A program made the position numbers and the translations under genes. A stretch of DNA of 35,401 nucleotides from Acidobacteriaceae bacterium (GTDB lineage: Bacteria; Acidobacteriota; Terriglobia; Terriglobales; Acidobacteriaceae), in contig PLGM01000154.1 of the NCBI GenBank assembly GCA_003139795.1, positions 60,309 to 95,709 of the forward strand, given 5' to 3'. The notes below the pieces were generated by a model. That model was not told where the DNA came from. It saw only the letters and a list, made by a program, of their open reading frames with translations, and searched no databases. This document shows, piece after piece, positions 14,449-24,190 of the stretch (its first letter is position 1; each line of letters begins with the position of its first letter).

Positions 14449-16014
14449 TCACACCACCCTATATTGCTCCGCCAATGCGCGGAACTCGCTTACTTGCACC
14501 TCAATCCACGCTTCATCGCGGCCTAGCTCGGCGGCTAGCAGTTTGGCTACCGGGTCGGCCATGGCGATGGCTGCGCTGGCGTTGAGAAACAGGGCGCGGG
14601 TGTGGCGGGCGAGCACGTCTTCGACGGTGCGGGCCATCTCGGCGCGGGCGGCCCAGACAACTTCGGCGGCGATGTAGGGAAGCGCGGGATGGAGTTGCAC
14701 GGCCAGGGCGGGGTCCTCGGCAAGCGTGCGAATCGATTCCGCATCGGAGCCGTAGACGGCAAGACTGTCCTCTGGGCTGCCCTGCGCGGCGGCGTCCTCA
14801 AGATAGCCGTGAATGCGCAGGTTCTTTGTGGTGCACTCAACGTCTGGGAGTTTGCCCAGGGTGATGGCGTGGTCCACGCAGTCCTCGGCCATGTGGCGGT
14901 AGGTGGTCCACTTGCCGCCGGTGATGGTGAGCAGGCCGGAAGTGTCCACGTGAATGACGTGGTCGCGCGAGAGGGCGGAGGTCTTGCCTTCACCCTTCAC
15001 CAGCGGGCGCAGGCCGACGTAGACGGCGAGCACGTCGGCGCGGCTGGGCGGGCGGACAAAGAAACGCGCTGCCGTCTCCAGGATGAATTCGATCTCCTCA
15101 TCGAGCGGGCGGGGTTCCAGGCTGGGCGCGTCGACGGGCGTGTCGGTGGTGCCGGCGACGGCGTGGCCGTGCCAGGGAATCACGAAGAGGATGCGGCCAT
15201 CGCTGGTGCGCGGGACCATGAGCGCTGTCTCGCTCTTGAGGAACGAGCGGTCGAAGACCAGGTGAATGCCCTGGCTGGTGACCACCAGCGGGTCTGCGGC
15301 GGGATCGGCCATCTGGCGGATTGAATCGGTAAAAACTCCGGTCGCGTTCACGACGATGCGTGCGGAAATGGCGAGTTCTTCGCCGGTTTCCTCATCGCGC
15401 GCCAGCATGCCGTTGACATAGCCGTCGGGGTCGCGCTGGAGGCCGGTGACGGGGCAGTAATTCAGGAGCGTGGCGCCGTGATCGGCGGCCGTCATGGCGA
15501 GATGAATGAGCAGGCGCGCATCGTCAAACTGGCCGTCGTAGTAGACCACGCCGCCGCGCAGCTCTTCGGGCTCCAGTGCGGGCAGGCGTTCGAGGGTTTC
15601 TTCCTTCGAGAGCAGCTTGGATGCGCCAAAACCGTATTTGCCGGCCAGCATGTCATAGAGCTTGAGGCCGATGCCGTAAAACGGCGCCTCCCACCAGGAG
15701 TAGTTGGGGACAACGAAGGCCAGATCGTGGACCAGGTGGGGCGCATTCCGGCGCATCAGGCCACGCTCTTTGAGGGCCGACATGACCAGGGGGATGTTGC
15801 CCTGCTCCAGGTAGCGGACGCCGCCGTGGACCAGTTTCGTGCTGCGGCTGCTGGTGCCCTTGCCAAAGTCGTGGGCCTCCAGGAGGACCACACTGAACCC
15901 GCGCGCGGCGGCATCCACGGCCACGCCTGCACCGGTGGCCCCGCCACCGACGACTGCAATGTCCCACGGCTGTTGCCGCTCCCGGACGTTGCGCACCATC
16001 TCTTCTCTGCGCAT
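14449..16014 (-). CDS. glpD: Glycerol-3-phosphate dehydrogenase, FAD-dependent
   Basis: Membrane-associated flavoenzyme that oxidises glycerol-3-phosphate to dihydroxyacetone phosphate and passes electrons to quinone. The N-terminal FAD-binding motif is DIAVVGGGATGAGVAVDAAA (residues 18-37). Family blocks GTSSRSTKLVHGGVRYLEQG, VVVTSQGIHLVFD and LLTITGGKWTTYRHMAED are all present. The 521-residue length is normal. The start is the ATG at 16014 with GGAG six bases upstream; a TTG four codons earlier is possible but lacks that spacing. It lies 72 bases downstream of glpK on the same strand, so the pair forms a glycerol-use operon. Confidence 0.95.
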   Translation of the reverse strand: MRREEMVRNVRERQQPWDIAVVGGGATGAGVAVDAAARGFSVVLLEAHDFGKGTSSRSTKLVHGGVRYLEQGNIPLVMSALKERGLMRRNAPHLVHDLAFVVPNYSWWEAPFYGIGLKLYDMLAGKYGFGASKLLSKEETLERLPALEPEELRGGVVYYDGQFDDARLLIHLAMTAADHGATLLNYCPVTGLQRDPDGYVNGMLARDEETGEELAISARIVVNATGVFTDSIRQMADPAADPLVVTSQGIHLVFDRSFLKSETALMVPRTSDGRILFVIPWHGHAVAGTTDTPVDAPSLEPRPLDEEIEFILETAARFFVRPPSRADVLAVYVGLRPLVKGEGKTSALSRDHVIHVDTSGLLTITGGKWTTYRHMAEDCVDHAITLGKLPDVECTTKNLRIHGYLEDAAAQGSPEDSLAVYGSDAESIRTLAEDPALAVQLHPALPYIAAEVVWAARAEMARTVEDVLARHTRALFLNASAAIAMADPVAKLLAAELGRDEAWIEVQVSEFRALAEQYRVV

Positions 16015-16086
16015 TATTCGCTCCAATGCAACTTCCAGCCCCCACCGAGACGCAAGAAGCCAAGCACGCAGCTTGCAGACAGCTTC

Positions 16087-17571
16087 TTACGCGCTCCAGT
16101 TCTTTGCCCGTTCGACAGCCCGCTGCCATTGCGCGCGGCGCTGGGCGCGAACGGCGGAATCCATTCGCGGTTCAAAGCGCGCGTCGTTTTGGCGTCTGGC
16201 GCGCAACTCCTCAGGGTTGGCCCAGAAGCCCGTCGCCAATCCTGCCAGATAGGCGGCGCCCAAAGCTGTGGTCTCCGTCACCTGAGGACGCACTACCGGG
16301 ACGCCGAGCAGGTCGGCCTGGAACTGCATCAGCAGATTGTTGACCGCGGCGCCGCCGTCCACGCGGAGGGCTGCCAGGGGGGTGGTCTCGCTCTGGACGG
16401 CCTCAAGCACGTCGGCCACCTGGAAGGCGATGCTCTCCAGGGCTGCACGGGCAATGTGGGCGGGCGAGGTGTCGCGGCGAAGGCCGATGATGAGGCCGCC
16501 GGCGTGCGCATCCCAGTGAGGCGCGCCGAGGCCCACAAAGGCCGGGACAAAGACCACGCCGCCTGTGTCGGGCACGCTGGCGGCGAGGGCTTCGACCTCG
16601 GCCGAGGAGCCGATCAGTTTGAGGTTGTCGCGCAACCACTGGACAACAGCGCCGCCGATGAAGATGCTGCCTTCGAAGGCGTATTCAAGGCGATGTTGGG
16701 CGCTGGCGGCGAGCGTGGTGATGAGGCGGTTCTTGGAGCGCACGAATTCGGCGCCGATGTTCTGGAGCAGGAAGCAGCCGGTGCCGTAGGTGTTTTTGGC
16801 CTCGCCCGCGGCCCAGCACAACTGGCCAAAGAGGGCGGCCTGCTGGTCGCCGGCGATGCCCGCGACGGCCGCGCCACCCAGGCCGAGGGTAGTGGTGACT
16901 TCGCCGGCCATTTGGCTGGACCAGACCACTTCAGGGAGCAGGCTCTCGGGGATATCGAAGATGCGCAGCAGTTCGGGGTCCCACTCGCCCTTGACGATGT
17001 TGAAGAGCAGGGTGCGGGAGGCATTTGTAACATCAGTCACGTGGCGGCTGCCGCTCGTCAGGTGCCAGATGAGCCAACTGTCGACAGTGCCGAAGGCCAG
17101 CTCGCCGCGGTCGGCGCGGGCGCGGGCGCCGGGGACGTGATCGAGGATCCAGGCGACTTTGGTGGCGGAGAAATAGGGATCGAGGACGAGGCCGGTGCGG
17201 TTGGAGACGTCTTCCCCGGCGCCGCTCTCTTCGAGAGCCGCGCAGCGCGAAGCCGTGCGGCGATCCTGCCAGACGATGGCGGGATGGATGGGCTTGCCGG
17301 TGGCGCGGTCCCACACAATCACGGTCTCGCGCTGGTTGGTGATGCCGATGGCAGCCAGGTCCCTGGGCCGCGCGCCGACCTTGCCGAGCGCTTCCACGGC
17401 GCAGCTCAACTGGCTGGTGAGAATTTCGGTGGGGTCGTGCTCGACCCATCCCGACTGGGGATAGAACTGCTCGAACTCGTGCTGCGCCGCGGCGGCAATG
17501 GCGCCCGCCTCGTCAAACAGAATCGCGCGGGAACTGGTGGTTCCCTGGTCCAGTGCAAGGATGTATGCCAT
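16087..17571 (-). CDS. glpK: Glycerol kinase
   Basis: Phosphorylates glycerol with ATP to glycerol-3-phosphate, the substrate of the downstream glpD product. The FGGY-kinase N-terminal phosphate motif [16 protein letters not shown] is at residues 5-20. Further hallmarks are [51 protein letters not shown] and the C-terminal [22 protein letters not shown]. The 494-residue length matches the family. The start is the ATG at 17571, which begins the conserved [10 protein letters not shown]; upstream codons in frame have no similarity. No glycerol facilitator or glpR-type regulator is in the window. Confidence 0.96.
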
Positions 17572-17861
17572 GTGCGCCGTCCGCCTTTGGGCACCAGTCA
17601 AACACGCTTGGCCGTGAGTGGGCAAGGTGGGCGGGAATCATGCCGCCGGCCTGAGTGCCGGTCTTTAATTGCCGCAGGCGATGACCCGGTGGCGACCAAG
17701 AATCACGATCCGAGATGAACCTCGACTCTCACGTTCGGCTGTTGACCAAGCTCTCCTGTTTCCGCGCAGAATCATCTCTGGCGGGCTCGACCGACCCTGC
17801 GCGTCAATCGAAGGACATCGGGCAAACAACAGGATTTCTCGCCGGCACGATCTCTGCGTCT

Positions 17862-20234
17862 TCAGTGTGAGGATTCAAGCAGAACCGATGACGCCTGGGG
17901 CAGATCGATCGACAAACGGCCATCTTGCAAAGAAAAGCTGCGTCCAGTCCAGGCGTCCTTCCAGGTCTCCATCTGCCAGGACCTGGGGATTGCCAGCGTG
18001 GCGTGGCGAGACAGATCGGCGTCGTCCCGCAAGCCCTCTTCCAGATTGGCCGCCATCAGGTGAGTTACTCCGTTGTGAGTGCGCCAGGCGGCAAGGTTCA
18101 TGGTTTCTTTCAAGTCGATCTGGGCGGCGCGCAGGCCGCCGTTCCGCCGCAGCAGTTCGTTCAGCACACCGGCGGCGAGTGCGTACGGGGCGCCGGTGTT
18201 TCCCCAAACCTGCGATAGAGGCAATTCTTCCACCGACCTTAGATAGGGAGGGTTCCATGCGGCAATTGGCGCTCCGCCGGCCGCGCCGAGCGTGAGTGCC
18301 GGAGAGCCTTCCTGGGTATAAATCACACTCGCATCCGCAGACGCAGAGGCGCTTTCGGGAAGGCAATACGCATTGAAGTCGAGTGGCATGTTCTTCACCA
18401 GTTCCGGGGCTCGATTGGCGGCTTTGCACAGCCGAACCGGCCCTTCGGCAGGAGCCGGGCTCCCGCGCAAACCGGCCAGCCGCAAGAGTGATTCGTCTAT
18501 GCCCCCGGCGAAACTTCCAACCAGAGCGACTGGATGGCCACTGGCGATGATCTGTGTGAGCTCAGCCAGATGCTTCGCGGAAAGATGGGAGGGTGTTTGC
18601 ACCACGAGCAGATCGGATTGAATCTGCGGCAGCCATTCAATGCGCGTGGAGGACAGAATCGGAACTGGCCACTTGGCCACAGATCCGGCCTGCTCATCCA
18701 GCCATTCATTGATGTCGTGGCCGGGCGATGCATGGTCAATCTGCCATTGCATCGCCTCGCGGGAATACACCAGTGTGGGGCCGAAGACAGCGGTTGTCTG
18801 GCGCGCATCCGCAACCGCTCGATTGATGTTGGCGGCAAGAAAGCGGACATCCTGTTCGTCAAGCAGACGCTCACCCTGATTGGCCCATGAAATGTACGAC
18901 CCCACGGGAAGCTTCAAGCCATTCGGCGTCTTGACGGCCGCATGGGAGTAAGCCCAGATTCCCCAACGCAATTTTTCGGGCGCGGAATGAATGACATCCC
19001 AACTTTCCCATGCGTCGAAGGTTTCGATAAGGGGATAATGGCGGACCTTGGTATCCGCGAGGATGGCTGCGTGGGTGAGCATGTAGGCGAGTTGGTAAGT
19101 CCATCCTTTCGTGGGGGCATTCCAGAACGAACCTTCACGGATGCCAATCTCGTTCCATGCCCCGGCCCAGGTCTGGTCCACCCAGATATCCAGATAACCT
19201 TGCCTGGCAATGGTCTCCAGATCCAGTCCGTTTGACCGCCAATCCGCGACCGCACTGGCTCCATTGGAATACATCATGACCAATGCATCCGGGTTTGCCA
19301 GCTTTGTTTCTCTGACCAGCGCAGCTACAGCATCGGTGGCCTGACGGATGACATCCGGGGAGGGAGCAAGCGGACCCCAGGGGCCGGCACGTTGGTATGG
19401 AACCGGCGTGCCAAAAGAATCTCGCAGCATAATCGCATCAAGGCCCAACGATCGCGACATGCTTCCCCATTGAGCCGAGTAGGCCTGATGCACCGGCGTC
19501 CCCTCCACGATTCCGTGGGGCATTCCTCCCAACGGGGTTGGGTCCGCATGCAAACGAGCCGCTGGATCGAAATAGCGTCCGACGTCAAAACTTCCCGGCT
19601 GGCCCGAGGCAGGTTTTGTAAATGCCTCCGAGTGGCGGCGAACCCAGGCCGCCTCCTCTCCGTATGCATTCGTCCACGCGTAGTTCAACATGCCGACTTT
19701 CACGCCGGCAATCTCACGCCGCCCTGCTTCCTGCTTGAGATCTGCGATCAGTCGCTTCACATCGCCATAGGTCCAAGGATCGTAGCCCCGTCGCTTTCCT
19801 ATCACCGACCCGGAAAACCGGGCTTCCGACTTTTGCTTCCTTTCCCCGGTGGTCCCGCTCAACTGTCCCCGCTCATCGACCCATCGACTTTGACCTGATC
19901 CGGTGGGCAGCGAAATTCTCTGCTCAAGATCGCCGGACCATTCCATCACCGGGCTAACCGTCCAGCCGATGTTCAGAATCACGCCACGGTAACCGCGGAC
20001 GCCCGCGAAGAGAGGTTGAAACCTATCCCAGAATTCGTGAGCGGACTCCGTCAACGCCTGCTGCTTGAACCAATAGAGGTCAATCTCAATCCATCGGTCC
20101 GTATCGACCGAAACTGCCGGAACCTTCTGTGCCGAACATGGGTTCTGGAGGATGCAGAGGAATATCCCCAGTAGAATCGCAGCCGCCGCACTGCAATGAA
20201 GGCGCATGGGCCATGGTCTTGCTTGCCGTTGCAT
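17862..20234 (-). CDS. Large secreted protein of unknown function, glycoside hydrolase-like architecture
   Basis: 790-residue protein not recognised as a named family. It begins with a signal peptide (hydrophobic AAAAILLGIFLCIL, cleavage near SAQ). Residues about 35-480 look like a TIM barrel: GYRGVILNIGWTVSPV, GLDAIMLRDSFGTPVPY, ALVMMYSNGASAVADWRS, GYLDIWVDQTWAGAWNE and HYPLIETFDAWESWDV. Residues about 500-640 resemble a glutamine amidotransferase-like fold (LLVVQTPSHLSAKHLAEL, SGHPVALVGSFAGG), as seen in the trimerisation domain of GH42-type enzymes. A beta-rich C-terminus follows. The ATG at 20234 is preferred because GGAG lies upstream; the ATG at 20258 or 20207 is possible. The stretch looks lower in GC than its neighbours. 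A carbohydrate-active role is inference. Confidence 0.7.
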   Translation of the reverse strand: MQRQARPWPMRLHCSAAAAILLGIFLCILQNPCSAQKVPAVSVDTDRWIEIDLYWFKQQALTESAHEFWDRFQPLFAGVRGYRGVILNIGWTVSPVMEWSGDLEQRISLPTGSGQSRWVDERGQLSGTTGERKQKSEARFSGSVIGKRRGYDPWTYGDVKRLIADLKQEAGRREIAGVKVGMLNYAWTNAYGEEAAWVRRHSEAFTKPASGQPGSFDVGRYFDPAARLHADPTPLGGMPHGIVEGTPVHQAYSAQWGSMSRSLGLDAIMLRDSFGTPVPYQRAGPWGPLAPSPDVIRQATDAVAALVRETKLANPDALVMMYSNGASAVADWRSNGLDLETIARQGYLDIWVDQTWAGAWNEIGIREGSFWNAPTKGWTYQLAYMLTHAAILADTKVRHYPLIETFDAWESWDVIHSAPEKLRWGIWAYSHAAVKTPNGLKLPVGSYISWANQGERLLDEQDVRFLAANINRAVADARQTTAVFGPTLVYSREAMQWQIDHASPGHDINEWLDEQAGSVAKWPVPILSSTRIEWLPQIQSDLLVVQTPSHLSAKHLAELTQIIASGHPVALVGSFAGGIDESLLRLAGLRGSPAPAEGPVRLCKAANRAPELVKNMPLDFNAYCLPESASASADASVIYTQEGSPALTLGAAGGAPIAAWNPPYLRSVEELPLSQVWGNTGAPYALAAGVLNELLRRNGGLRAAQIDLKETMNLAAWRTHNGVTHLMAANLEEGLRDDADLSRHATLAIPRSWQMETWKDAWTGRSFSLQDGRLSIDLPQASSVLLESSH

Positions 20235-20281
20235 TGTCACAATGTCTCCAATTCGCATGAACCTGTCCGATGACGTTCCAA

Positions 20282-20349: not shown

Positions 20350-22149
20350 TTACTGCACTTCGCCGATGTAGACGCCGTAGGGGCCGAGCTGAAACTCGCC
20401 CAGCGAGGCTGGATCGGAGGCGCCGGGGGTCTTGAGCAGGGTTTTGATCTTGCCGCCGGAGCCGGGAATGGTGAGGCTGACCGTCTGCGGGTCGGGGGTG
20501 AAATTGACCGATACGACCACAGCCGGTGCTCCAGGCGTCAGGCGCAGCCAGCTCAGGACCTTGGTGTTGGTGGTGTCGAGCATGACGTTGTCGCCGTGGG
20601 CGAAGGCCGGGTTGGTCTTCTTGAGGCGGATCAGGGTCTGGTACCAGGTGAAGAGGGAGTTAGGATCGCTCTTCTCGGCCTGGACGTTGATGGTGGCGGC
20701 ATTGGGCGGGACGGGCAGCCAGGGAGTGGCACCGGCTTTGGTAAAGCCCGCGTCGGCGGTCGCGTCCCATTGCATCGGAGTGCGCTCGCCGTCACGGCCC
20801 TTGTCCTTGGGCCAGCCGGTGAGGCCAACGGGGTCCTTGACGTCTTCCTTGCGGGCGGGCGGCGTGGTCTTCATGCCAATCTCGTCGCCGTAGTAGAAGA
20901 GCGCCGTGCCTCGACTGGCGAACAGCATCGTCGCGATGACGCGCTCGATGTCGGTGTCGTGAACGCCATCGCCGTAGCGGGCGTCGATGCGCGGGTTGTC
21001 GTGGTTATCGAAGACCAGCAGCGGAATATTGCCGCCGAGGCCGGTTTCCGCGTCGTTGAGCCGGGTGCGAAACTCGGCCACGTCGAGCTTGTTGATGAAG
21101 CCCACCTGGGTATCCATGGGCAGTTGAAACTCCGGCTTGTCCGCGGCCCCATACTGTTTGGCGAGTTCGGCGATGTTGGGCAGGTAAGTCTCGCCGATGA
21201 GCACCCGCGTGCCGGGGAACTTGTCGGAGTTGAAGGTGTCGCTCCAGGCGCGCATCTCCTGCATCACCGCGTGCGTACCGGGCAGGTTGTTGGTCCGGGT
21301 GTCGTTCAAGGCAATGTCGCCGTAGTCATTGAGGTAGGATTTGCCGTTCTTGTCGAGGAGGACGTCTTCGTCGATGAGGTTGGGGTCCTCGAACAGGGTG
21401 GTGATGGCGTCAAACCGGAAGCCGCCCACGCCACGCTTGAGCCAGAAGCCGATGATGTCCTTGAAAGCCTCGTGGATTTTGGGGTTGTCCCAGTTCACGT
21501 CCGGCTGCTGGATGTAGAACTTGTGGTAGTAGTACTGGCGGGTCTTCTCGTCCCACTCCCACGCCGAGCGGCCAAAGTCGGACTGCCAGTTGTTCGGCGC
21601 CTGGCCCTTGTCGGTCGCCGTTTCTCCCTTGCCGTCGTGCCACATATACCAGTTGCGGTAGGGGTTGTCGCGCGACGACCGCGACTGGATGAACCACTGG
21701 TGTTTGTCGGAGGTGTGGTTCATGACCATGTCCATGACGATGCGGATATGGCGTTTCGCCGCCTCGGCCACCAGCCGGTCAAAGTCCTTGAGCGTGCCGT
21801 ACTGGGGATCGATGTTCTCGTAATCCGAGATATCGTAGCCGAAGTCCACCTGGGGCGAGGGGTAGACCGGGCTGAGCCAGATGGCGTCCACGCCCAGGTC
21901 CTTCAGGTAGTCGAGCCTTTCGGTGATGCCGTTGAGGTCGCCGATGCCGTCGCCGTTGGAGTCCTGGAAACTGCGCGGGTAGATTTCGTAGATGACGGCG
22001 TTCTTCCACCAGTCCCGGGCGCTGGAGGGGGTTGCGCTGCTGAGTTGGGGTGCGGGTTTGGGGGGCGCGTTCTGCCCCGCCGCGGATAGCGCCGCGACCC
22101 CCAGAGACAGGGCGATGGCGCAGCTTGCAATGCTCCTGGTCCAGTGCAT
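20350..22149 (-). CDS. Secreted GH13 alpha-glucosidase/alpha-amylase family enzyme
   Basis: 599-residue glycoside hydrolase family 13 enzyme hydrolysing alpha-glucosidic bonds, probably of short malto- or isomalto-oligosaccharides. A signal peptide (residues 1-26, ending SAAGQ) sends it out of the cytoplasm. The catalytic triad is visible: nucleophile D247 in GFRFDAIT, acid/base E320 in VLIGETYLP and transition-state D384 in VFDNHDNPR. The N-terminal YEIYPRSFQDSNGDGIGDLN and MVMNHTSDKHQWF motifs are those of oligo-1,6-glucosidase and trehalose-hydrolase-like members. The start is the ATG at 22149 with GAGGAG six bases upstream. A hairpin follows the stop. Exact linkage specificity cannot be fixed by eye. 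Confidence 0.92.
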   Translation of the reverse strand: MHWTRSIASCAIALSLGVAALSAAGQNAPPKPAPQLSSATPSSARDWWKNAVIYEIYPRSFQDSNGDGIGDLNGITERLDYLKDLGVDAIWLSPVYPSPQVDFGYDISDYENIDPQYGTLKDFDRLVAEAAKRHIRIVMDMVMNHTSDKHQWFIQSRSSRDNPYRNWYMWHDGKGETATDKGQAPNNWQSDFGRSAWEWDEKTRQYYYHKFYIQQPDVNWDNPKIHEAFKDIIGFWLKRGVGGFRFDAITTLFEDPNLIDEDVLLDKNGKSYLNDYGDIALNDTRTNNLPGTHAVMQEMRAWSDTFNSDKFPGTRVLIGETYLPNIAELAKQYGAADKPEFQLPMDTQVGFINKLDVAEFRTRLNDAETGLGGNIPLLVFDNHDNPRIDARYGDGVHDTDIERVIATMLFASRGTALFYYGDEIGMKTTPPARKEDVKDPVGLTGWPKDKGRDGERTPMQWDATADAGFTKAGATPWLPVPPNAATINVQAEKSDPNSLFTWYQTLIRLKKTNPAFAHGDNVMLDTTNTKVLSWLRLTPGAPAVVVSVNFTPDPQTVSLTIPGSGGKIKTLLKTPGASDPASLGEFQLGPYGVYIGEVQ

Positions 22150-22273
22150 TGTGGTCTCCTCGTCGTGTTTCCGCTGCTCGTAGATTCGGCAGCAGTGTGT
22201 CGCAAGCCAAACTATCACATTGGGGCGGGAAATGGCTGCCGTTGATTGGCTGTTTCGGGCGGAAAAGTCCGCT

Positions 22274-24010
22274 CTAAGGCTTCCCCTCAGCCGGCGCCGA
22301 ACTTATCTTCAGCCGGTCGAAATTGATGCTGAATATCGGCTCCTCGCGGGTTCCGGAGATGTGAATCGGAACCTCCGTGCCAGCCCCGTTCTTCTTGAAG
22401 TACTTGTCGGCGGGCTTGAGCAGCAAACCTGCCCAGCCACCCACCATCTGCGAGACCGTGGCCTGCAGCTTCGCCGTTCCGGTAAAGTCCAGCGCGCCGC
22501 CCTCCACGCCATACGTGCCCTGCAATTGGATCATGGCCCCAGGAACGGTGTAGGTGAGACCGGGCAGGGTAATGACGCCGCCGGCCATCTGGAAATCGCC
22601 CTGCATGGTGGAGTGGATGGCGGCCGGGTCGGTGGTCTTCACATCCTGGGGCCGGCCCTGGCCACGCATGCTGAGTTGCCTGAGGCCGTCCTGGATTTTG
22701 ACGCTGGAGAACCGCGCCTGATCGAGATTGAAGGCGCCTTTCAGGCTGAGACGCTCGTGCACCGGCGCGGTCCCCGGCGGAATGTGCAGCGTGGTCTTCA
22801 TGGTCAGCGAGCCGGTCAGCAAGGAGTTAGGCGAGTGGCTGGCGAGACGGAGAAAATCCTCAAGGCGCGCGCGGTCCACGTTGATCGTAAGCGCAATGTC
22901 GTGGCCCTTGCTGGGCGGCAAGGCCCCGGTATTGCCAACCTGCGCGGCCGCCACGCGAACAACCTGACCCTGGGCGGTAAAGTGCGAATGGCCCAGCGTC
23001 GCATCCACGGGATCGAGCCAGGTGTCGCCATTGGTGGCATCCACCCTGGCGTGGAAATGGGTGTGGAGGGGCAACGGGTTGCCGAAGTGGGTGAGGCGGA
23101 AGTCCGGCGTATCGGTGTCGCCATCCACGACCAGGTCGCGCAATGTGCCCTGGTAATTTCCGGTCGAGGAGAGAATCCCGGCAATGCCCTTGAATCCGGC
23201 GAGGTCCGCGTGGTCAAACGTGTAGTGGCCTGTAATCGGGCTCTCGCCGGGATCCGCCACCAGCCATGGACCAAAGCTACCGGTGGAGTGAATCGTGCCT
23301 ACCGGCCGGGGATTGGTGAGGTTGGCGTCAAAATCCATGGCCTCGCCGGAGCTGATTTTGGTGAGCTTGAACTGCGCGATGGCAAAGTCCAGGGGCAGCT
23401 TGCCGGGCTTGCTGGTTTCGAGCACAAAGTGGGCCCCGGTGCATTCGATGGTGTCCACCGCGAAGCGCAGCGACAGGGCGGAAGCCGTGCGTTGGGCAGC
23501 AACGGATTGGCCGGCAGCCTCAGTGGAGGCGTCCGGGGCTGCGGCAGAAGCGTGGCCAAAGTGGGATTTGGGCGGGAAATGGATATCGAGCCCCTTCAAC
23601 TCGACCACCGAGATGTGGAACGGCTTGCCGGGTTGGTAGTGGAGCGGGGCATGAAAGCGAAACTCGTCGAGGCGGATGATTGGGTCGCCCGAATTCGTGG
23701 CCGGGGGCACCGTAACGCCCTCAACCTGGGCCGGCGGCCAGATGCGCAGACCGTGACCCTCGGCCCGGAGTCCATTCACGAGCGACACATGAAAGGTGTC
23801 CATCTCCACGCGGGCGTGAAAGTGCTCCTGCAACGTCCCGACGATGCGGGCGCGCAGGAAGGGCTCGGCCCGGTGCAACGCCAGGTCCGCAATGACGGCC
23901 AAGGCCGCCGCCAGCAGGAGCAACCCGCCTGCGACCCACTTCAACCACCGGTTTCTGCGCCAGAAAGATGCACCAGTGTTCGCCAAACCTGCCTCCCGAT
24001 TGGATTCCAT
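22274..24010 (-). CDS. AsmA-like envelope protein
   Basis: 578-residue protein with one N-terminal membrane anchor (residues about 24-44, after RRNRWLKW). A long periplasmic beta-rich region follows. The opening HRAEPFLRARIVGTLQEHFHARVEMDTFHVSLV and the C-terminal block (GVITLPGLTYTVPGAMIQLQ, LDFTGTAKLQATVSQMV) are typical of AsmA/YhdP-type proteins. These are now regarded as bridge-like lipid-transfer or envelope-assembly factors. The start is uncertain: the ATG at 24010 gives a normal anchor, while one at 24097 would add a basic 29-residue leader, and neither has a clear ribosome-binding site. It is divergent from the zinc-ribbon gene. Whether this copy moves phospholipid is inference. Confidence 0.78.
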   Translation of the reverse strand: MESNREAGLANTGASFWRRNRWLKWVAGGLLLLAAALAVIADLALHRAEPFLRARIVGTLQEHFHARVEMDTFHVSLVNGLRAEGHGLRIWPPAQVEGVTVPPATNSGDPIIRLDEFRFHAPLHYQPGKPFHISVVELKGLDIHFPPKSHFGHASAAAPDASTEAAGQSVAAQRTASALSLRFAVDTIECTGAHFVLETSKPGKLPLDFAIAQFKLTKISSGEAMDFDANLTNPRPVGTIHSTGSFGPWLVADPGESPITGHYTFDHADLAGFKGIAGILSSTGNYQGTLRDLVVDGDTDTPDFRLTHFGNPLPLHTHFHARVDATNGDTWLDPVDATLGHSHFTAQGQVVRVAAAQVGNTGALPPSKGHDIALTINVDRARLEDFLRLASHSPNSLLTGSLTMKTTLHIPPGTAPVHERLSLKGAFNLDQARFSSVKIQDGLRQLSMRGQGRPQDVKTTDPAAIHSTMQGDFQMAGGVITLPGLTYTVPGAMIQLQGTYGVEGGALDFTGTAKLQATVSQMVGGWAGLLLKPADKYFKKNGAGTEVPIHISGTREEPIFSINFDRLKISSAPAEGKP

Positions 24011-24190
24011 TGTCGCAGAGCGTTGGCGGCTTGAGACTGGGGCTGGATTCTTTCCCTTGCGCGAGCGCCGTGCACCCCACATTTGCTTGAGATGCATCGC
24101 GCAAGAGGTGGGAAACCGGAAACCAGCTCCATTCGGCGGCGCTCCTCATTTTCTTAATAGACGGTGCATGGCGTAGACTCCATAGCACGG

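Follow-up and report, generated by a model that had tools for sequence, protein, structure and literature searches.

A rare acidobacterial protein family, probably carbohydrate-active, that is undescribed in the libraries searched

The gene described here codes for a protein of 798 residues (P0001, hereafter the query) in the genome of an Acidobacteriaceae bacterium (G000), and lies in a stretch of 35,401 nucleotides (contig PLGM01000154.1, positions 60,309 to 95,709) that is referred to below as the window. The query belongs to a real family that is undescribed in the libraries searched and is probably carbohydrate-active. With a rough probability of 0.6, sequence analysis suggests that the query is a carbohydrate-active enzyme that is exported, an exo-acting glycosidase being the likeliest kind, and cleavage of a glycan is given about the same odds. 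A tie between this family and methylated sugars is interesting and unproven. Two ideas put forward in a preliminary description of the window, a resemblance of the query to GH42 enzymes and a partnership with an adjoining GH13 enzyme, are not supported.

Gene and Protein

The query gene is real, since a homologue in a MAG of the Acidobacteriaceae (L001), the sole relative found in a scan of genome contigs, is 70% identical to it over residues 48-795. The open reading frame had first been drawn at 17862-20234; it is genuine and reaches eight codons further, to 20258, position 20234 being an internal ATG at residue 9. Both sequence motifs singled out at that stage, LDAIMLRDSFG (residues 273-283) and YLDIWVDQTW (residues 355-364), are found in the protein, and the signal peptide claimed for it fits, on hydrophobicity, a single strong hydrophobic stretch at residues 22-38. 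The gene is present as a single copy within its own genome. Its lower GC content was likewise borne out (0.591 vs 0.620-0.670 in six neighbouring genes) and is more pronounced at third codon positions (GC3 of 0.645 vs 0.772-0.872 in the same genes). The query and its proposed parts are as follows.

17862..20258, minus strand: query coding sequence (P0001, 798 aa), from the open reading frame and the 70% identical homologue
20130..20258, minus strand: predicted N-terminal export signal region, residues 1-43, with a putative boundary, containing the strongest hydrophobic window of the query (residues 22-38)
18861..20093, minus strand: proposed (beta/alpha)8 barrel, residues 56-466, the part common to a sister family and a barrel-only Nonomuraea protein (hhalign), with a putative barrel fold
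18459..18791, minus strand: proposed amidotransferase-like domain, residues 490-600; the best, non-significant alignment to GH42 proteins spans residues 551-711
17865..18341, minus strand: proposed beta-rich C-terminal domain, residues 640-798; a sub-threshold Melibiase_C match (E 0.016) occurs in one of seven members

The absence of a recognised family, noted from the start, was upheld by searches of Pfam-A, NCBIfam and PDB sequences, each of which returned zero matches: no Pfam or NCBIfam family matched the query at E<=1 or scored over its curated cut-off, and no PDB sequence matched at E<=10. Profile searches against PDB sequences gave chance-level matches only, and none of the three libraries yielded a match to an established non-glycosidase family. 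When seven members of the family (A1) were searched singly against Pfam, only sub-threshold, single-member matches appeared (TMEM52, 0.0054; Melibiase_C, 0.016; DUF3991, 0.12). AlphaFold models of the query as a single sequence (mean pLDDT 36.4) and of its barrel part together with L001 (mean pLDDT 35.0) were unusable, and the faint strand-helix alternation in the former was not counted as evidence. The three-domain layout of barrel, amidotransferase-like domain and beta-rich end is thus only a reading of the sequence. The literature within reach, in which subscription journals were barely represented, described neither the query family nor a demethylation of sugars by corrinoid enzymes.

Rarity and Arrival in the Window

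The query gene is rare and patchily spread within its own bacterial family. Full or contig-split copies occur in seven of 80 genomes of the genus (G000, G310, G367, G342, G316, G369, and G356), full-length copies occur in five of 398 genomes of the family (G000, G342, G461, G449, and G516), and two samples of the phylum contained full-length matches in 1/297 and 2/396 genomes. An eighth genome of the genus (G343) holds only a C-terminal remnant of 33 residues (L029:9496-9594, 67% identity), which is overlapped by another open reading frame and is probably a decayed copy. No relative was found in the viral contigs and phages scanned. Weak matches at L010-L021, L039, L041, L042, L046, and L049 were not accepted as relatives.

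Three genes flank the query in the window.

20350..22218, minus strand: GH13 enzyme adjoining the query, part of an older neighbourhood and not of the system considered here
16087..17625, minus strand: glycerol kinase glpK, found after GH13 in those sister genomes whose corresponding site has no query gene
14449..16026, minus strand: glycerol-3-phosphate dehydrogenase, glpD-like (Pfam/NCBIfam searches)

In G310 (L073) and G372 (L072), glpK comes after the GH13 gene and the query gene is absent from the interval, and the alignment of both loci to the window ends at 20351, the end of GH13, and restarts at 17627-17630, at glpK. This gene order, together with the odd composition of the query (low GC3), shows that GH13 and glpK were already neighbours when the query gene was inserted between them. 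Of 79 genus genomes, 59 have the GH13 gene itself at E<=1e-200, mostly without the query, and G310 carries its own query homologue on a different contig, beside GH42 and GH59 genes. Because of the insertion, nothing about function can be read from the adjoining GH13 gene: the earlier argument from a secreted GH13 neighbour fails, and a GH13 partnership was rejected on the gene order in G310 and G372. The proposal of a new carbohydrate-active family draws nothing from that neighbour; its support comes from the absent family matches and from the neighbourhoods of the homologues described below.

Two further features of this neighbourhood were observed. A 607-aa protein upstream of GH13 (22274-24097, minus strand) is kept with GH13 in sister genomes and has no Pfam or NCBIfam match. 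In several genus genomes, a second GH13, about 40-50% identical, lies beside the GH13 enzyme (L062-L065, L067, L068, L070, L083, and L084).

Three Subfamilies and their Conserved Residues

A profile of ten close members (A2) was compared with a sister family (A3) of TAT-exported proteins of about 850 residues from four acidobacterial genomes (G551, G225, G641, and G372), and with a protein of 413 residues from Nonomuraea gerenzanensis (P0002). The similarity of A2 to A3 (hhalign probability 93.8, E 1.7e-7), of A2 to P0002 (probability 95.8, E 7e-9) and of A3 to P0002 (E 6.4e-16) is significant, and on these profile comparisons the query, the sister family and the Nonomuraea barrel protein form one superfamily of three subfamilies. 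The Nonomuraea protein spans only the N-terminal, barrel-like part, and no export signal is apparent in it by eye.

Conserved acidic residues, sought in the barrel part of the query by alignment of homologues, are present: H209, E211, D239, D274, and G283 are common to all three subfamilies. E412 is invariant in close members only. E201 was dropped as a superfamily-wide acid, because the alignments do not place it against the glutamate in the G-P-E of the distant subfamilies. The conserved motifs, all from alignments, are listed here.

19626..19637, minus strand: R-H-S-E, residues 208-211; H209 and E211 are kept in all three subfamilies
19542..19553, minus strand: L-H-A-D, residues 236-239; D239 is kept in all three subfamilies
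19410..19439, minus strand: residues 274-283; D274 and G283 are conserved, and the two distant subfamilies have N for D280
19149..19181, minus strand: VDQTWAGAWNE, residues 360-370; D361, N369, and E370 are invariant in 10/10 close members, not in distant ones
19008..19028, minus strand: IETFDAW, residues 411-417; D415-x-W417 matches the D-P-W of the distant subfamilies
18873..18890, minus strand: SWANQG, residues 457-462; N460 is invariant in 10/10 close members

The active site would lie at the C-terminal face of the proposed (beta/alpha)8 barrel, where it may be lined by H209, E211, and D239, on a long loop, and by D415 on a late strand, all of them conserved across the three subfamilies; the conservation of D415 in Nonomuraea is less sure, since the alignment of the tail to the query differs between alignments.

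Neighbourhoods of the Relatives and a Possible Link to Demethylation

Sugar or methyl-transfer genes lie near the query homologue in seven of nine other genomes, an uncontrolled raw count, and glycosidases are abundant in Acidobacteria, which counts against an argument from neighbourhood. The contexts comprise URO-D, GH42, GH59, and GH116 in G310; GH127 and a sugar porter in G367; LacI, GH16, GH31, and an outer-membrane receptor in G356; AraC, an aldose epimerase, a Rieske/desaturase fusion, and a sugar porter in G461; a sulfatase, a radical SAM protein, an FGGY kinase, a PTE-like protein, a sugar porter, and a receptor in G449; and a sulfatase followed by a 37% identical porter, AraC, an epimerase, and a Rieske/desaturase gene in G516. 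G369 has, in the direction of the query, URO-D, a B12-binding protein, DUF1638, and the ferredoxin-type start of a RACo-like protein. In the two remaining genomes, G342 and G316, the genes read are all of other kinds, among them outer-membrane receptor, export and regulator genes. At L001, a GH42 gene lies two genes upstream of the homologue and URO-D stands at the edge of the locus. One and the same sugar porter, 66-67% identical, recurs near the homologue in three genomes of three genera (G367, G461, and G449). A 566-aa protein with no Pfam match (L022:6548-8248, minus strand) adjoins the porter and a query homologue.

The distant subfamilies also keep company with sugar genes, both lying in operons for sugar uptake. 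The sister family, which has no Pfam match, sits in a conserved operon (L054, L055, L056, and L057) of an IclR regulator (labelled by reading), an outer-membrane receptor, the enzyme, an arabinose/fucose-isomerase-like protein, an MFS transporter, and an esterase. Enzyme, isomerase-like protein and MFS transporter are present in 4/4 genomes, a close receptor (>70%) and the esterase each in 3/4, and IclR in 3/4, the fourth genome having fragments of it. In Nonomuraea, the end of a gene for an ABC solute-binding protein overlaps the gene of the barrel-only relative, and LacI, GH1, and GH3 genes lie nearby. The locus of this relative also holds a 1048-aa exported-looking protein (L050:341-3487, minus strand) with no Pfam match above cut-off and, by eye, a likeness to alpha/alpha-toroid lyases.

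Co-occurrence of the query with the porter (E<=1e-120) and with MtaB (PF12176) was examined in 79 genus genomes, a draw that did not include G316; all P values are hypergeometric and ignore shared ancestry and incomplete MAGs. The porter is found in 17 of the 79 genomes, among them five of six query carriers (G000, G310, G367, G342, and G356; P 0.0014 ignoring ancestry). MtaB is found in ten, among them four of the six carriers (G000, G310, G342, and G356; P 0.0018, again ignoring ancestry). Within this sample, the carrier G369 lacks both and G367 lacks MtaB. Porter and MtaB occur together in eight of these genomes (P 3.3e-5, likewise ignoring ancestry), and in G000 they lie side by side on contig C236, away from the query. 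Elsewhere, PhyH-type dioxygenases lie beside the same porter in other loci, and a GH36-like gene adjoins it in G319.

The porter was also seen in wider gene groups. Corrinoid methyltransferase genes (MtaB, B12-binding, URO-D, RACo, and DUF1638) adjoin one sugar porter at L117:1499-14131 (G309), L112:3720-6689 (G000), and L113:2891-7947 (G310); G309, which lacks the query, unites in one stretch AraC, an epimerase, a Rieske/desaturase gene, the porter, URO-D, RACo, DUF1638, MtaB, and a B12-binding protein. A fused fatty-acid-desaturase/Rieske/reductase of about 760 aa is a repeated neighbour of the sugar porter or of an aldose epimerase (L051:2958-5270, L053:13986-16499, L116:4025-6307, and L117:3718-6006), and this fusion is possibly a sugar demethylating oxygenase.

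The export signal, rarity, mobility and sugar-gene neighbours of the query together suggest that it frees a polymer-bound sugar for uptake. The query would be exported by means of its N-terminus and, outside the inner membrane, would remove the terminal sugar of a polysaccharide; once freed, this sugar could be imported by the MFS sugar porter found near several homologues and, inside the cell, might be epimerised and then demethylated. Demethylation is proposed because the porter and the homologues are linked to corrinoid methyltransferases or to the Rieske/desaturase oxygenase, and the sugar may carry O-methyl groups since corrinoid methyltransferases, the Rieske/desaturase fusion and PhyH-type dioxygenases are all plausible demethylating systems. 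O-methylated sugars as the substrate are a tentative suggestion, decidedly less probable than glycan cleavage itself. Equally speculative is the full proposal, that the query founds an undescribed glycosidase family of three subfamilies, whose acidobacterial branch would free O-methylated sugars for a dedicated porter and for demethylation by corrinoid methyltransferase, or by Rieske/desaturase oxygenase in relatives.

The link to corrinoid and oxygenase genes may well be a coincidence, at odds somewhat short of even; the enzyme would then act on an ordinary plant or microbial polysaccharide and move among carbohydrate gene islands. The neighbourhoods differ in nearly every genome, the insertion in the window put the query next to unrelated glycerol genes, and related genomes have their ancestry in common, all of which speaks for a coincidence. 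It would account less readily for the URO-D, B12-binding, DUF1638, and RACo-like genes that directly follow the query homologue in G369, for URO-D at the edge of L001, and for MtaB being rare (10/79) yet present in four of six query carriers.

Partial precedents exist. Oxidative demethylation of 6-O-methyl-D-galactose in marine bacteria by cytochrome P450 is reported in PMC10033563. Glycan degradation is tied to the removal of sugar methyl groups in both systems, demethylation being only proposed for the query; the marine system uses cytochrome P450, whereas relatives of the query adjoin corrinoid methyltransferase or Rieske/desaturase genes. The GH156 exosialidases, reported in PMC6254351, are an example of a glycosidase family whose first definition came from functional screening; the query, in comparison, showed no sequence relation to any PDB sequence.

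Other Enzyme Classes

An exported barrel protein of a sugar pathway that is not a glycosidase, such as a lyase, an isomerase-like enzyme or a binding protein, is an unlikely identity for the query. It would agree with the lack of any glycosidase family match, with the catalytic acids, which have no assignment, and with the isomerase-like protein and esterase in the sister operon; the export signal and the GH42/GH59/GH127, sulfatase and sugar porter neighbours suit cleavage of a polymer better.

A retaining alpha-glycosidase similar to clan GH-D, the alpha-galactosidase type that comprises GH27/31/36, is improbable. This clan has an Asp nucleophile on strand 4 and an Asp acid/base on strand 6, roles that D280 and D361 would take, respectively. 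D361 is invariant in 10/10 close members and D280 in the 9/9 that cover the site, and their spacing of 81 residues falls within the range of the clan; one of seven members has the sub-threshold Melibiase_C match, and a GH36-like gene lies beside the same porter in G319. However, both distant subfamilies carry N in place of D280 and do not keep D361, the strand numbers, though plausible, are predicted from the sequence, and no Melibiase or GH31 family matched the barrel part.

Clan GH-A enzymes follow the rule that the N-E acid/base stands on strand 4 and that the nucleophile, a Glu on strand 7, comes about 100 residues or more after it. A diverged relative of GH42 beta-galactosidases of this clan, with N369-E370 as acid/base, E412 as nucleophile, and barrel, trimerisation and beta domains, is a poor candidate: the E370-E412 spacing is 42 residues, as against 166 in the GH42 protein of L001, and too short for strands 4 and 7, and neither N-E nor E412 is kept in the distant subfamilies, even though W368-N369-E370 and E412 are invariant in 10/10 close members and a GH42 gene lies two genes upstream in L001. 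GH42 beta-galactosidases (PF02449 and PF08532) resemble the query in length and, by sequence reading only, in the order of barrel, amidotransferase-like and beta-rich parts; the query differs in having no Pfam match, and neither Glyco_hydro_42 nor its trimerisation domain was found in seven members at E<=10. The best hhalign alignment of A2 to 17 local GH42 proteins (551-711 vs 541-692) falls on the collinear middle domain, where the layout originally suggested would have it, at a probability of 2.6%; because a GH42 vs GH13 control gave only 5.7%, this insensitive test neither proves nor excludes a GH42-like layout. GH42 and GH59 neighbours were not taken as relatives of the query, profile comparison being not significant.

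Significance

Acidobacteria play a major part in decomposition in soil and peat, and plant, fern, algal, and microbial polysaccharides commonly contain methylated sugars. To our knowledge, the release and demethylation of such sugars are little known beyond the marine P450 case. A family missed by the main libraries, and accompanied by a porter and corrinoid methyltransferases, offers concrete genes to test. Should only the weaker claim hold, the query would still stand for a new family of glycosidase-like proteins with a superfamily of its own; should the O-methyl reading be true, these genes would form a route by which bacteria of soil and peat join the decay of polysaccharides to one-carbon metabolism.
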